IMG/VR virus record: IMGVR_UViG_3300008012_000115
Location: 1 to 29,713 of that record
Strand: one strand, 5' to 3'
DNA length: 29,713 nucleotides
Source of the DNA: a virus
The position numbers and the translations under genes were made by a program. The notes beneath the pieces are model-generated. The model made no database searches, was not told the DNA's origin, and saw only the letters and a program-made list of their open reading frames with translations. This document shows, piece after piece, positions 6,031-23,023 of the stretch (position 1 is the stretch's first letter; every line of letters begins with the position of its first letter).

Positions 6031-6180
6031 TCAGTCGTAAGCGGGGGTAAACACCCTCGTTTTTTTCTGCAGTTTTTCAGCCTTGTCCAAAAGCTCAAGC
6101 GCCTCCTCACGGGTGGTGCAGAGCTCCGCCTTTGACTGAATCTTGGCGTACTTTTTTGAGTACTTAGCTGGTTTCATCAT
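6031..6180 (-). CDS. small basic hypothetical protein
   Basis: A 49-residue protein, MMKPAKYSKKYAKIQSKAEL at its start and ending TRVFTPAYD. It is lysine-rich and helical (TREEALELLDKAEKLQKK). Its ATG overlaps the end of the upstream leftward gene by 17 nt and has AAGGA about 8 nt upstream, so it is probably translated by coupling. A rightward intrinsic terminator lies within its 3' coding end. No family recognised. Confidence 0.6.
   Translation of the reverse strand: MMKPAKYSKKYAKIQSKAELCTTREEALELLDKAEKLQKKTRVFTPAYD
6042..6066 (+). terminator. intrinsic terminator for the rightward operon ending at 5923
   Basis: CGGGGGT / ACCCTCG form a 7-bp stem (one G-T) with a 4-nt loop, followed by seven consecutive Ts. 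It is about 120 nt past the last rightward stop and sits inside the C-terminal codons of the leftward gene 6031-6180, so the sequence serves both as a terminator and as coding DNA. Confidence 0.8.
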
Positions 6181-6421
6181 TCAGGAATCCTTGTAGGGCC
6201 ATTGTTTCGTATTGAACAAGACGCTTACAAAGCCCACGAATCGCAGCCTGGCGTGCAATGCACACCTTAAGTAGGTTTTTTGACGCCTCTCTCAATTCTT
6301 CGACACTTGTTGCTGCATCAATCTCAGATGCAATCCGTGTCTCTAAAAACTCGTCTTCTAAAGATTTGGAAATTTCTAAATCCTCGAACGGGATTTCAAT
6401 AATCTCAAACTCTTCTGACAT
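6164..6421 (-). CDS. small acidic protein of a cyanophage-type family
   Basis: An 85-residue protein. The N-terminal half is strongly acidic (MSEEFEIIEIPFEDLEISKS). The C-terminal half is helical with a TSVEELREASKNL segment and ARQAAIRGLCKRL. From memory, similar VEELREA...RQ..IR.LCKRL sequences occur as short unnamed proteins in T4-like cyanophages; no function is known to me. It has a TTAGAATA box 19 nt upstream of its ATG and is first of a two-gene leftward unit closed by the terminator at 6002-6027. Confidence 0.7.
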   Translation of the reverse strand: MSEEFEIIEIPFEDLEISKSLEDEFLETRIASEIDAATSVEELREASKNLLKVCIARQAAIRGLCKRLVQYETMALQGFLNDETS

Positions 6422-6555: not shown

Positions 6556-6693
6556 ATGGCTGCACGCAAGACGTTCACGAACACAAAAACCATTGTTGCC
6601 ACGCCAAAAAAGACTTCGATCGGTGACGGTCGCCGCAAGCGGGGCTCCTTCAAAGTCAAAGGGCAGAAGCCTTACAGAGGACAAGGTAAGTGA
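6556..6693 (+). CDS. small basic protein with YRGQGK C-terminus
   Basis: A 45-residue, strongly basic protein (MAARKTFTNTKTIVATPKKT at the start; GRRKRGSF in the middle; C-terminus KPYRGQGK). From memory, tiny basic proteins ending YRGQG(K/R) are common in T4-like cyanophages, with no known function. The charge suggests nucleic acid binding. It is the first gene after a strong sigma70-type promoter, and its TGA overlaps the GTG of the next gene (GTGA), so expression is coupled. Confidence 0.65.
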   Translation: MAARKTFTNTKTIVATPKKTSIGDGRRKRGSFKVKGQKPYRGQGK

Positions 6694-7181
6694 ATCAGGA
6701 AGACTGCTTTACCCCGCTCCGGCACAAAGCAGTAGAGATACCTGATTACATCCAGTGGCTCCTTGATCAGGACATTAAATGGGCAGAGCATTTCGGTTTC
6801 CAAGCCTTTCCGCTTCCTGCTGATTTCATCCAGATAGAACCAGCTCTGCAGGAGCTGGACAAGATTTGGCAGATCAAAAGACTGGGCCTGCTTCGCGTGG
6901 AGCCAATGTCTGTCTACGACTGGCATGTGGACGAATACCGTCTATCCTGCGTAAACATGCTGTACAGCACAAATGACAGCAGCCACGCTCTTTTTGGTGA
7001 GCAGCGCGATGCCTTGAACAAAGACGTGATCGAGCTGAAGTATCAAGCCGACACCTTTTACTTGTTCAACAATCAAATGCCTCACACGGTCATCAATCTC
7101 GGTGGCCCTCGATACCTTTTCTCTCTCTACTTCGAAGAGGAGAAGGATTACTGTTCCTTGCGTGACCTCTACAATGGCTGA
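6690..7181 (+). CDS. 2-oxoglutarate/Fe(II)-dependent oxygenase-like protein
   Basis: A 163-residue double-stranded beta-helix protein. It carries the iron-binding triad of the superfamily: HVD at residues 79-81 (His79, Asp81) and His132 in MPHTVINLGGPR, with Arg141 in the place of the 2OG-carboxylate-binding Arg. Enzymes of this type hydroxylate proteins, small molecules or nucleic acids; the substrate cannot be read here. It starts at a GTG overlapping the previous stop and overlaps the following gene by 8 nt. It differs from the prolyl-hydroxylase-like gene at 22232, so the phage carries two such oxygenases. An Asp/Asn-hydroxylase or cupin-like fold is an alternative reading. Confidence 0.75.
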   Translation: MNQEDCFTPLRHKAVEIPDYIQWLLDQDIKWAEHFGFQAFPLPADFIQIEPALQELDKIWQIKRLGLLRVEPMSVYDWHVDEYRLSCVNMLYSTNDSSHALFGEQRDALNKDVIELKYQADTFYLFNNQMPHTVINLGGPRYLFSLYFEEEKDYCSLRDLYNG

Positions 7182-20511: not shown

Positions 20512-20659
20512 AGAATTTATCGAATGTTACGATTACAACCTTCAGCTTTTAGACGCTATTGATCTTCTGAAACACTTCTCTCCTGAGGCTTTGGAGACCC
20601 TAAACCAGTTGGATTTTGGGACCAAAGTCGATAAAAGCGACGAATCACATGACCAGTAG
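20498..20659 (+). CDS. small acidic hypothetical protein
   Basis: A 53-residue protein starting at tandem ATGs (20498 or 20501), MMEYEEFIECYDYNLQLLDA, ending SDESHDQ. It is acidic and helical. It overlaps the Nmad1-like gene by 14 nt and runs 104 nt antisense into the 3' end of the lysozyme-like gene. It has better protein character than most antisense frames here, but the overlap lowers confidence. Confidence 0.45.
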   Translation: MMEYEEFIECYDYNLQLLDAIDLLKHFSPEALETLNQLDFGTKVDKSDESHDQ

Positions 20660-21305
20660 GATCCCATTCACTGAGTTTCTTTTCTAGATATTCGACTGCT
20701 TTTACTTGATTGGGGGCGCCTGTGTAGGTATCTGGAAGGTTGAGAAGACAAACAGGGGTATGACACTTGTGTTTTGTAAAAGTCGGGATCTTCTTGTCAG
20801 CCGACAAAAATAGATTTAACTCGGCACGTCTTCGATCACGCATGCCGTCTCCCCCCGAAAGCCAATATTTGTTGATGTATGGGCTCCACTCTTTGATTAT
20901 TTCTGTCTTAGACGCATGGCTATTGATCAGTTCTAACAGTCGAGAGTTTTTAAAAGCAAGCAAACCGATGCTGTGAGCAAAGCTAAGAACTGCTCCTTTA
21001 CGTGATCTATTAAGAGGTGCATAAACATACTCTGAAACTTGACATGAAAAAATCTTAAGGTCCTCTATAAGCTGTGAGTCAACTTCCTCTTGTGTTGCTT
21101 TGTCATACATACCGATGCGCCTGTTCCAAAGGCTAATACTGCCATAACCGATTCGGTAATCGGATTCACCATAATCTTTATATGAACCAAAAAGCCCCAT
21201 ACCTAAAGAGGTACGAGGCTTTGTATGTAGTTTGATTAGTTGAATTCCTGCTTCCGTAAGAAAAGGAAACTCTTTCCAAGTCCGCTGTTTCTTACGGGAT
21301 CTCAA
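20556..21305 (-). CDS. lysozyme-like endolysin of cyanophage type
   Basis: A 249-residue protein from a TTG start overlapping the upstream gene by 14 nt. The fold resembles phage lysozyme (GH24): LTEAGIQLIKLH, SYKDYG...RIGYGS (41-56), then PLNRSRKGAVLSFAHSIGLL and LLELINSH. Asp44 aligns with T4 lysozyme Asp20, but the catalytic Glu11 and Thr26 positions appear as His/Thr and Arg51. From memory, similar proteins with this C-terminal extension (GAPNQVKAVEYLEKKLSEWD) are conserved in cyanophages as lysozyme. It probably cuts peptidoglycan, but the altered site leaves this open. It lies near the NblA gene in a leftward block. Confidence 0.65.
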   Translation of the reverse strand: MRSRKKQRTWKEFPFLTEAGIQLIKLHTKPRTSLGMGLFGSYKDYGESDYRIGYGSISLWNRRIGMYDKATQEEVDSQLIEDLKIFSCQVSEYVYAPLNRSRKGAVLSFAHSIGLLAFKNSRLLELINSHASKTEIIKEWSPYINKYWLSGGDGMRDRRRAELNLFLSADKKIPTFTKHKCHTPVCLLNLPDTYTGAPNQVKAVEYLEKKLSEWDPTGHVIRRFYRLWSQNPTGLGSPKPQERSVSEDQ

Positions 21306-21675
21306 CTAAGATGTCGTAGCTGATCTCAGAATAGCCATCAAGAGTCAACTGCACAAGATAGTTTTTAGATGCATCGGTTACGTTTACAGCAATGGCACCG
21401 GCTCCTTTGCCAGCCGTCGCAACATTAAAAGATTTTTGATAGCCAGTTGGAGCTGATGCTGCGGTGTAGGAGTCATCCTGGAAAATCTCCATGCTGACAA
21501 TACCCGTAGAACGCAACAGCTTGACGATGTGGTTCCCTGTGCCGGCAGGATTGATCTCAAAACTGCGGATGTTTAGACCACGGTCAATGCCGGCTCCAGG
21601 TCCTTTGTAAGTGATTTCAGAACCTGTATCCACGTTGAAGGTATCAAGCGTACCGTGAATAATGCGATCAGCCAT
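21292..21675 (-). CDS. putative small virion protein
   Basis: A 127-residue beta-rich protein starting MADRIIHGTLDTFNVDTGSE, with Thr/Ser/Gly-rich strands (LRSTGIVSMEIFQDDSYTAA) and a strand-like end YSEISYDILVEIP. The composition is like capsid-decoration or tail-tip proteins. It lies between NblA (5-nt gap) and the lysozyme-like gene (14-nt overlap) in one leftward unit. No Shine-Dalgarno is visible before the ATG. No family recognised. Confidence 0.55.
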   Translation of the reverse strand: MADRIIHGTLDTFNVDTGSEITYKGPGAGIDRGLNIRSFEINPAGTGNHIVKLLRSTGIVSMEIFQDDSYTAASAPTGYQKSFNVATAGKGAGAIAVNVTDASKNYLVQLTLDGYSEISYDILVEIP

Positions 21676-21680
21676 GGTAT

Positions 21681-21896
21681 TTAGGAGATTTGTCCAATAG
21701 TGGAGAAGTTGAATTTGATATCGGCATCAATGCCGTGATCCTTGAGAACGCTTAAGAACATCTGTTTGTCGACAGCTTTTTGGTGGAGCATCTCGATAAA
21801 TGCTTCTTCGAGCTCGTCACGATCCATTCCTTGAATGGCAATTGATGCTGCGTGGATCTGAAATTCCACGTCCACGGGAAGCTCTAATGCATCCAT
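21681..21896 (-). CDS. nblA: NblA-like phycobilisome degradation adaptor
   Basis: A 71-residue protein. It starts LELPVDVEFQIHAASIAIQG and continues MDRDELEEAFIEMLHQKAVD then KQMFLSVLKDHGID, the two-helix pattern of NblA (L-x-x-E-x-x-F/E-F-x-I/L...-Q-x...-L-x-x-L...-x-x-L-L-K). In cyanobacteria NblA links phycobilisome proteins to the ClpC protease so the antenna is degraded. NblA genes are known from freshwater and marine cyanophages. The ATG at 21896 is preferred to an upstream TTG at 21908; a TTAGGATA box lies 21 nt upstream. It is first in a leftward unit with a virion-like protein and the lysozyme-like gene, so it would probably be expressed with late functions. Confidence 0.72.
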   Translation of the reverse strand: MDALELPVDVEFQIHAASIAIQGMDRDELEEAFIEMLHQKAVDKQMFLSVLKDHGIDADIKFNFSTIGQIS

Positions 21897-21917
21897 GGTA
21901 ATTCTCAATCTTAAAGG

Positions 21918-21925
21918 TATCCTAA
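21918..21925 (-). promoter_or_regulatory. candidate late promoter box (TTAGGATA) of nblA
   Basis: TTAGGATA on the minus strand, 21 nt before the nblA ATG, with no visible -35. It matches the boxes at 6441, 20217 and 29631 within TTA[GT][AG]ATA, and the distance matches those of 6441 (19 nt) and 29631 (20 nt). Confidence 0.45.
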
Positions 21926-21947
21926 CAGCGCTTAATTAACTTGGCCA

Positions 21948-22091
21948 TTAAGCATCCTCGTCGCTGTAATTTCCAGCTGGCAGTCGCATGCGGGGTTGAC
22001 CAGTCTCAGGATCGATTATTTTATCGTCCAGGACGTCTTTGTTTTGTTCTACGAATTCGGCGAGAAACTGCGTGGCTGGATCCGTTCTCAT
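21948..22091 (-). CDS. tiny acidic protein with FLAEF motif
   Basis: A 47-residue protein, MRTDPATQFLAEFVEQNKDV then LDDKIIDPETGQPRMRLP, ending NYSDEDA. Residues 9-13 (FLAEF) fit the FLx[STEG][FY] motif of other leftward proteins. It lies upstream of nblA with a 51-nt gap. Too short for family recognition; the shared motif is the main reason to believe it is real. Confidence 0.5.
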   Translation of the reverse strand: MRTDPATQFLAEFVEQNKDVLDDKIIDPETGQPRMRLPAGNYSDEDA

Positions 22092-22120
22092 GACTAAATC
22101 TGTTGTGGCGCAATGTGAAA

Positions 22121-22150
22121 TTGCCTATACCGAACGCCGCTCCATATAGT
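22121..22150 (+). promoter_or_regulatory. possible promoter for the prolyl-hydroxylase-like gene
   Basis: TTGCCT (22121-22126), an 18-bp spacer, and TATAGT (22145-22150), 81 nt before the ATG at 22232. The -35 is weak, so this is only a candidate. Confidence 0.35.
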
Positions 22151-22231
22151 AAAGCAAACGTTAAGGCACAGAGTTCCACGTTACAGCAATGTTCTATTCA
22201 TTTATTGTACGTGCAGTGTTCCGATGTGTAG

Positions 22232-23023
22232 ATGGACGACACTCTTTTAGAGCTTTTTATCAGGGGCGCTGTAGGTGGCGTCAGTAAAACACAGTTGCTT
22301 AGAAGCTTTAGGGAAGACCATGATTGCTCAGAAGAGGATCTTGACTTCTTAGTTAAATCAGCATTTTTCAAAGAGAAGCCGAAAAACATTGATCATAAAA
22401 AAATCTATGAGCGTCCCCTGAAAGACAGAGCAAACCGTATTTGGTTTCCGTTCACTCAACTGTATTTTAAAGATAATTTTTTGTCAGAAGATGAGTGTCA
22501 AGAGCTTATTGATTTTATCGAACAGGGTTTAAGACCGTCAACTGTCGCAAATGAAACTGACGATGGCGAAGTATCCGACTACAGGACTAGCTCGACGACA
22601 GATCTCGACCCCTTTGCAAACGAACTCTCCCTTCGTTTAGATCAAAAAATTACCGCTTTTATGGATCTTGATCCTTTTGTTGGCGAGACGCTTCAAGCAC
22701 AAAAATATTTACCCTCTCAGTACTACAAAGAACATGTCGATTTCTTTTTTCCTTTCACAGAAGAACATAAAGTCTACTGCGAGTGGATGGGGCAGCGTAC
22801 ATGGACAGTGATGATTTATCTAAACGACGTCGAGTCAGGTGGTGAAACCTATTTCAAGTATCTCAACAAATACTTTAAACCAAAACAAGGAACGCTCTTG
22901 TGTTGGAACAATCTATATAAAAACGGAATTCCTAACTATAAAACAATGCATGAAGCACTACCACCTGTCTCAGGAAACAAATATGTGATCACAAAGTGGT
23001 TTAGGAGTTGGCCTTTGATTTAA
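22232..23023 (+). CDS. prolyl 4-hydroxylase-like 2OG-Fe(II) oxygenase
   Basis: A 263-residue protein. Residues ~80-262 form a P4Hc-type fold: FKDNFLSEDECQELIDFIEQ at the start, HVDFF (His168, Asp170), RTWTVMIYLNDVESGGETYF, KPKQGTLLCWNN, His240 in TMHEALPPVSG, and Lys250 as the 2OG-binding residue. The first ~75 residues are a helical extension of unknown role. Such enzymes hydroxylate prolines in proteins; phage P4H-like proteins have been found in cyanophages, with unknown substrates. It stands alone, diverging from the NblA cluster, and converges by 4 nt with a DUF6496-like gene. Confidence 0.88.
   Translation: MDDTLLELFIRGAVGGVSKTQLLRSFREDHDCSEEDLDFLVKSAFFKEKPKNIDHKKIYERPLKDRANRIWFPFTQLYFKDNFLSEDECQELIDFIEQGLRPSTVANETDDGEVSDYRTSSTTDLDPFANELSLRLDQKITAFMDLDPFVGETLQAQKYLPSQYYKEHVDFFFPFTEEHKVYCEWMGQRTWTVMIYLNDVESGGETYFKYLNKYFKPKQGTLLCWNNLYKNGIPNYKTMHEALPPVSGNKYVITKWFRSWPLI

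Follow-up and report, generated by a model that had tools for sequence, protein, structure and literature searches.

NblA targets the light-harvesting antenna of the host for breakdown. Binding to ClpC takes place close to its N terminus and binding to phycobiliproteins close to its C terminus (PMC4103541); in Synechocystis an NblA1/NblA2 heterodimer is required (Baier 2014, as cited in PMC7966870). For phage NblA of the Ma-LMM01 and PaV-LD type, breakdown of the host's phycobilisomes has been reported (PMC5780444, PMC4103541), and expressed phage NblAs of both freshwater and marine origin cause phycobilin loss (PMC9602691). Viral NblA is established in freshwater and marine cyanophages by the work of Nadel 2019 (as cited in PMC9602691) and Nadel 2025 (as cited in PMC12892361), which bears out the statement, in a preliminary description of the DNA studied here, that cyanophage nblA genes had already been reported.

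Here we analyse a stretch of 29,713 nucleotides from an IMG/VR virus record (IMGVR_UViG_3300008012_000115), referred to as the window, in which a 71-aa gene probably encodes a divergent cyanophage NblA that feeds the host phycobilisome to the Clp protease. This protein would share its family and proposed function with the freshwater phage NblAs of Ma-LMM01 and PaV-LD. Those two clear the Pfam NblA model PF04485 at 52 and 45 bits, whereas the 71-aa protein has no match to it; and Ma-LMM01 nblA sits in the replication region, whereas the 71-aa gene sits beside a lysozyme gene (Table 1).

Table 1. Positions of the NblA-like genes, their surroundings and the S-EIV1 counterparts; positions refer to the window unless a record is named.
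Feature	Position	Strand	Remarks
NblA-like adaptor gene, 71 aa	21681..21896	-	ATG at 21896, stop at 21681
127-aa protein, second cassette gene	21292..21675	-	always between NblA-like gene and lysozyme
Lysozyme/endolysin, third cassette gene	20556..21305	-	PF00959 E 1.2e-13; phrog_7 endolysin; synteny
2OG-Fe(II) oxygenase gene	22232..23023	+	PF13640 E 4.4e-13
Intergenic region, NblA-like gene / oxygenase gene	21897..22231	.	holds leader element
Leader element TTAAGCGCTGTTAGGATA	about 21918-21936	-	precedes NblA-like ATG; conserved in many contigs, including diverged ones
Second NblA-like gene, 85 aa	6164..6421	-	S-SCSM1/S-TIM5/picocyanobacterial NblA type; in replication block
AHV82245.1, hypothetical, NblA-like	S-EIV1 KJ410740 73902-74222		L089
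AHV82171, hypothetical, NblA-like	S-EIV1 KJ410740 27768-27986		L088

The 71-residue protein of the preliminary description is encoded exactly as claimed, with every quoted peptide present. A program-made list of open reading frames begins this frame at a TTG at 21908; the conserved start is the ATG at 21896, which is common to all contigs compared and which in many of them is preceded, 2–3 codons upstream, by an in-frame stop. Relatives are encoded by at least 220 viral contigs in IMG/VR, and the first 80 fetched all align over residues 1–71. Members of the family alignment (A1) are 76–94% identical to the window protein, with 37 invariant columns, and dN/dS is low (pooled 0.07, median 0.06; 54 distinct alleles). 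The number of contigs, the full-span alignment and the low dN/dS set the reading frame far from chance; the gene is real and evolves under purifying selection. A tblastn search of phage records with the 71-aa protein gave only chance-level matches (E about 5–10), so no isolate in the searched phage collection carries a close relative.

The assignment to NblA made in the preliminary description holds at the profile level only. A search with PF04485, which had been proposed there as a check, matches neither the protein nor anything in the whole window, and the best relatives of the protein reach E 0.054 at most. The NCBIfam NblA model NF045916 does match the window protein, over residues 6–52 at E 1.1e-4, with the next family at 0.12; the score of 22.3 bits is far below the equivalog cut-off of that model. 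Neither curated cut-off (25 bits for PF04485, 100 bits for NF045916) is reached, and judged from its sequence the window protein is a divergent NblA homologue, not a curated family member.

Several searches run in different directions converge on this family. First, phmmer against the PDB ranks two NblA structures at the top (3cs5, E 0.018; 1ojh, E 0.066), the A1 profile finds 3cs5 at E 9e-4, and a joint profile of the 71-aa family and S-EIV1-type homologues, run against 177,635 PDB sequences with E up to 10, returns two matches, both of them NblA (3cs5, 1.5e-5; 1ojh, 3.8e-5). Second, a scan of 244 cyanobacterial genomes with A1 gives three matches at E up to 0.01 per genome, a count that itself means little when about 2.4 are expected by chance at that limit; the weight of the scan rests on the identity of the matches, two being genes over the PF04485 cut-off (G042, G124) and the third an NblA-like protein. 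Third, the reciprocal search, with an NblA profile built from sequences identified independently (cyanobacterial sequences and two freshwater phage proteins, with divergent sequences chosen only with our own profiles excluded), ranks the window ORF first of 381 at E 9.8e-9, and hhalign of the same NblAs against the 71-aa family gives E 7.4e-8 over 59 columns. With a wider NblA set the hhalign score is 44, compared with at most 15 for 60 column-shuffled controls. Homology to NblA is supported by these PDB profile searches, the NCBIfam match, the genome scan and the reciprocal window search, together with the synteny with S-EIV1 described below. Weak Pfam matches to FF, Arg_repressor and DUF3231 were set aside as scattered noise.

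The predicted structure is consistent with the same assignment. AlphaFold2 with a joint alignment (A4) yields a short helix at residues 8–21 and a long helix at 26–53, the short-then-long helix-turn-helix of the NblA monomer (~60 aa), with a mean pLDDT of 76, values of 83–87 over residues 11–50 and per-block means of 78–87 over residues 11–60; with the shallower alignment A1, the second helix is interrupted at residues 41–43. The preliminary description would have been abandoned had there been both no significant NblA HMM match and a different fold; we find an NblA HMM match and an NblA-like predicted fold. A Foldseek search with the two-helix model of the 71-aa protein retrieved nothing from the PDB and only noise from BFVD, a result that we treat as uninformative for a model of 71 aa and two helices. 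The lack of a PF04485 or Foldseek match would also be expected of a generic small helical phage protein that resembles NblA by chance, but the PDB and NCBIfam searches and the unbiased genome scan all put NblA first, and the shuffled controls score far lower, which makes such a coincidence very improbable.

Like cyanobacterial NblA (PF04485; 1ojh, 3cs5, 2q8v), the 71-aa protein has a two-helix layout and a gap-free core, the alignment running without gaps from L6 to K52. Positions L6, F12, L51 and K52 are kept and D9 replaces E10, whereas R16, Y38, R44 and E45 (Nostoc numbering) are changed. The protein is also set apart from cyanobacterial NblA by its high overall divergence, its scores under the curated cut-offs and an extra C-terminal tail (about residues 57–71) without a clear counterpart there. 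We take K53 and L51 of Nostoc NblA to matter for phycobiliprotein binding; K53 corresponds to the invariant K52 here, which we treat as a lead only.

The replacement of NblA-conserved positions raises the question of whether the protein might instead be an anti-adaptor, an NblA homologue that postpones loss of the antenna by pairing with host or phage NblA or by sitting on phycobilisomes but not bringing in ClpC. A possible partner is at hand in the second NblA-like protein of the genome (below), and many marine cyanophages prolong host photosynthesis. We nevertheless consider an anti-adaptor quite unlikely, given that the protein retains both its N-terminal L..(D/E)..F signature and K52 at the C-terminal end and that the phage NblAs tested, freshwater as well as marine, cause phycobilin loss (PMC9602691).

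The preliminary description had placed the gene in a leftward unit with lysozyme-like and virion-like genes; the lysozyme is confirmed by PF00959 and by synteny, and the virion-like label finds no support, the 127-aa gene having no match in Pfam, PHROG or phage records. The latter gene lies 4–5 bp downstream of the NblA-like gene in all contigs compared (82/82; 5 bp in the window), and the lysozyme gene is the next after it in 75 of 75 testable contigs. On the other side, 66 of 85 contigs have a 2OG-Fe(II) oxygenase gene upstream, in divergent orientation. By median identity the NblA-like gene (83%) ranks with the most conserved genes of the block; the lysozyme stands at 64% and the 127-aa protein at 59%.

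This invariable link to the lysozyme, a conservation stronger than that of most neighbours and the several residues that differ from cyanobacterial NblA could point to an adaptor of the NblA fold that now acts on some other host protein in place of the phycobiliproteins and is tied to lysis or virion release, all the more as a probable NblA of a known type is available elsewhere in the genome for the antenna. Retention of the hydrophobic core and of the C-terminal lysine speaks against retargeting, and we know of no target of the NblA fold other than phycobiliproteins; we regard this explanation as unlikely. For the favoured reading, a divergent NblA directed at the phycobilisome, the lysozyme link makes late expression plausible, and only plausible because nblA of Ma-LMM01 is expressed early (PMC4103541). 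The leader element TTAAGCGCTGTTAGGATA is a possible promoter, a candidate without a clear sigma-70 consensus; a sigma-70 scan found sites about as frequent as chance. No copies of the element beyond chance were found elsewhere in the window, so no regulon can be derived from it.

Sequence comparison identifies the virus as a distant relative of Synechococcus phage S-EIV1 (KJ410740), with identities of 41% for polymerase A, 33% for the primase, 42% for an exonuclease-like gene, 51% for g18321 and 52% for g23163. In S-EIV1, AHV82245 directly follows the lysozyme, between the counterparts of g23163 and of g19335–g18321, the same interval as in the window, and we assign it as the S-EIV1 counterpart of the 71-aa protein. 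Its family (A3, 31 loci) matches the A1 profile at E 8e-7. AHV82245 and its IMG/VR relatives have in common with the 71-aa gene the lysozyme-adjacent neighbourhood, the NblA core and a C-terminal tail motif, I-x-[FW]-[DN]-x-x-T, present in both A1 and A3; they differ from it in their length (104–106 aa), an acidic tail, the lack of a lysine matching K52 and an identity of only ~25%. They are also nearer to Pfam NblA than the 71-aa protein is, syntenic A3 members passing the PF04485 cut-off of 25 with up to 27.4 bits. Both AHV82245 and AHV82171, annotated as hypothetical in S-EIV1, look like NblA homologues. One 88-kb contig (IMGVR_UViG_3300011113_000581; L210/L211) carries both S-EIV1-type and window-type NblA-like genes, or has a chimeric end. 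Since the 71-aa family is missed by the standard Pfam model, is common in IMG/VR and has an unannotated counterpart in S-EIV1, annotation-based surveys may overlook it.

An NblA-like gene in the replication block, at 6164–6421, had escaped the preliminary description. Its family profile, A2, has NblA 2q8v as its top match in the PDB (E 0.011; next 0.97) and finds the published S-SCSM1 NblA QFG06501.1 at 1.5e-4, S-TIM5 AEZ65625 at 0.002 and S-EIV1 AHV82171, with which the gene is syntenic, at 2e-11; it also matches, at 8e-4 to 0.009, proteins in cyanobacterial genomes of 2.3–2.7 Mb, the picocyanobacterial range. The gene lies between g4886 and the 2OG-like g6690/g7102, antisense to these neighbours, an arrangement conserved in related contigs. 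Against the independent NblA profile without A2-chosen sequences its match is weak (0.29; hhalign 3e-4), and for this reason we call it a probable, not certain, second NblA. It is this gene, not the 71-aa gene, that belongs with S-SCSM1, S-TIM5 and picocyanobacterial NblA, whose proposed role is the same as that of the 71-aa protein but whose sequence type is different; a comparison of A1 with A2 gave no significant match. A third PF04485 match, in contig G255, was considered as a separate family and rejected, as it is of the second NblA type. The cyanopodoviruses Syn5, P60 and S-CBP2 have no relative by any of the profiles used.

Both NblA types occur in each of the eight window-type contigs tested, and in S-EIV1 each type has its counterpart. 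G002, one of these eight contigs, has the S-EIV1-type gene as well and may be a chimera of the assembly. It is conceivable, although on balance doubtful, that the S-EIV1-like lineage has a conserved two-NblA system, with a picocyanobacterial-type protein among the replication genes and a lineage-specific one at the lysozyme cassette, the two being divided by infection stage or antenna target or forming an obligate heterodimer. Novelty is most probably to be sought in the conserved pairing of two unlike NblAs, viral NblA itself being already known, and if such a pair does exist in one phage, adaptor specialisation would become directly testable.

Cyanophage identity is supported by the tRNA-Leu of the window, which is closest to cyanophage tRNAs, by the presence of g26490 in cyanophage records (chiefly of Synechococcus, a few being labelled only marine or uncultured) and by the kinship with S-EIV1, the host of which is Synechococcus. 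In 9 of 16 related records there are weak matches to Chloroa_b-bind, a model that includes hli-type proteins. A phycobilisome-bearing host of the Synechococcus type is the natural inference, not proof.

In such a host, the small two-helix protein would, by analogy with its family, act as a dimer that binds the phycobiliproteins of the antenna and ClpC, so that the host Clp protease receives the phycobilisome; for the virus the gain would be amino acids and a reduced light load on the infected cell. What the analysis establishes for the 71-aa protein is the ORF with its conservation, the homology to NblA, a predicted helix layout, the synteny and the co-occurrence with the second type; dimerisation, phycobiliprotein and ClpC binding, timing and benefit are what we infer. 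The gene stands first in a lysis-linked operon, and the lineage may use two adaptors, perhaps one early and one late, or a heterodimer like that of Synechocystis. Both NblA-like genes lie divergently beside 2OG-Fe(II) oxygenase-like genes, that next to the second NblA-like gene being at 6690–7181 on the plus strand (PF13640, E 0.033) and that next to the 71-aa gene being the oxygenase gene of Table 1.
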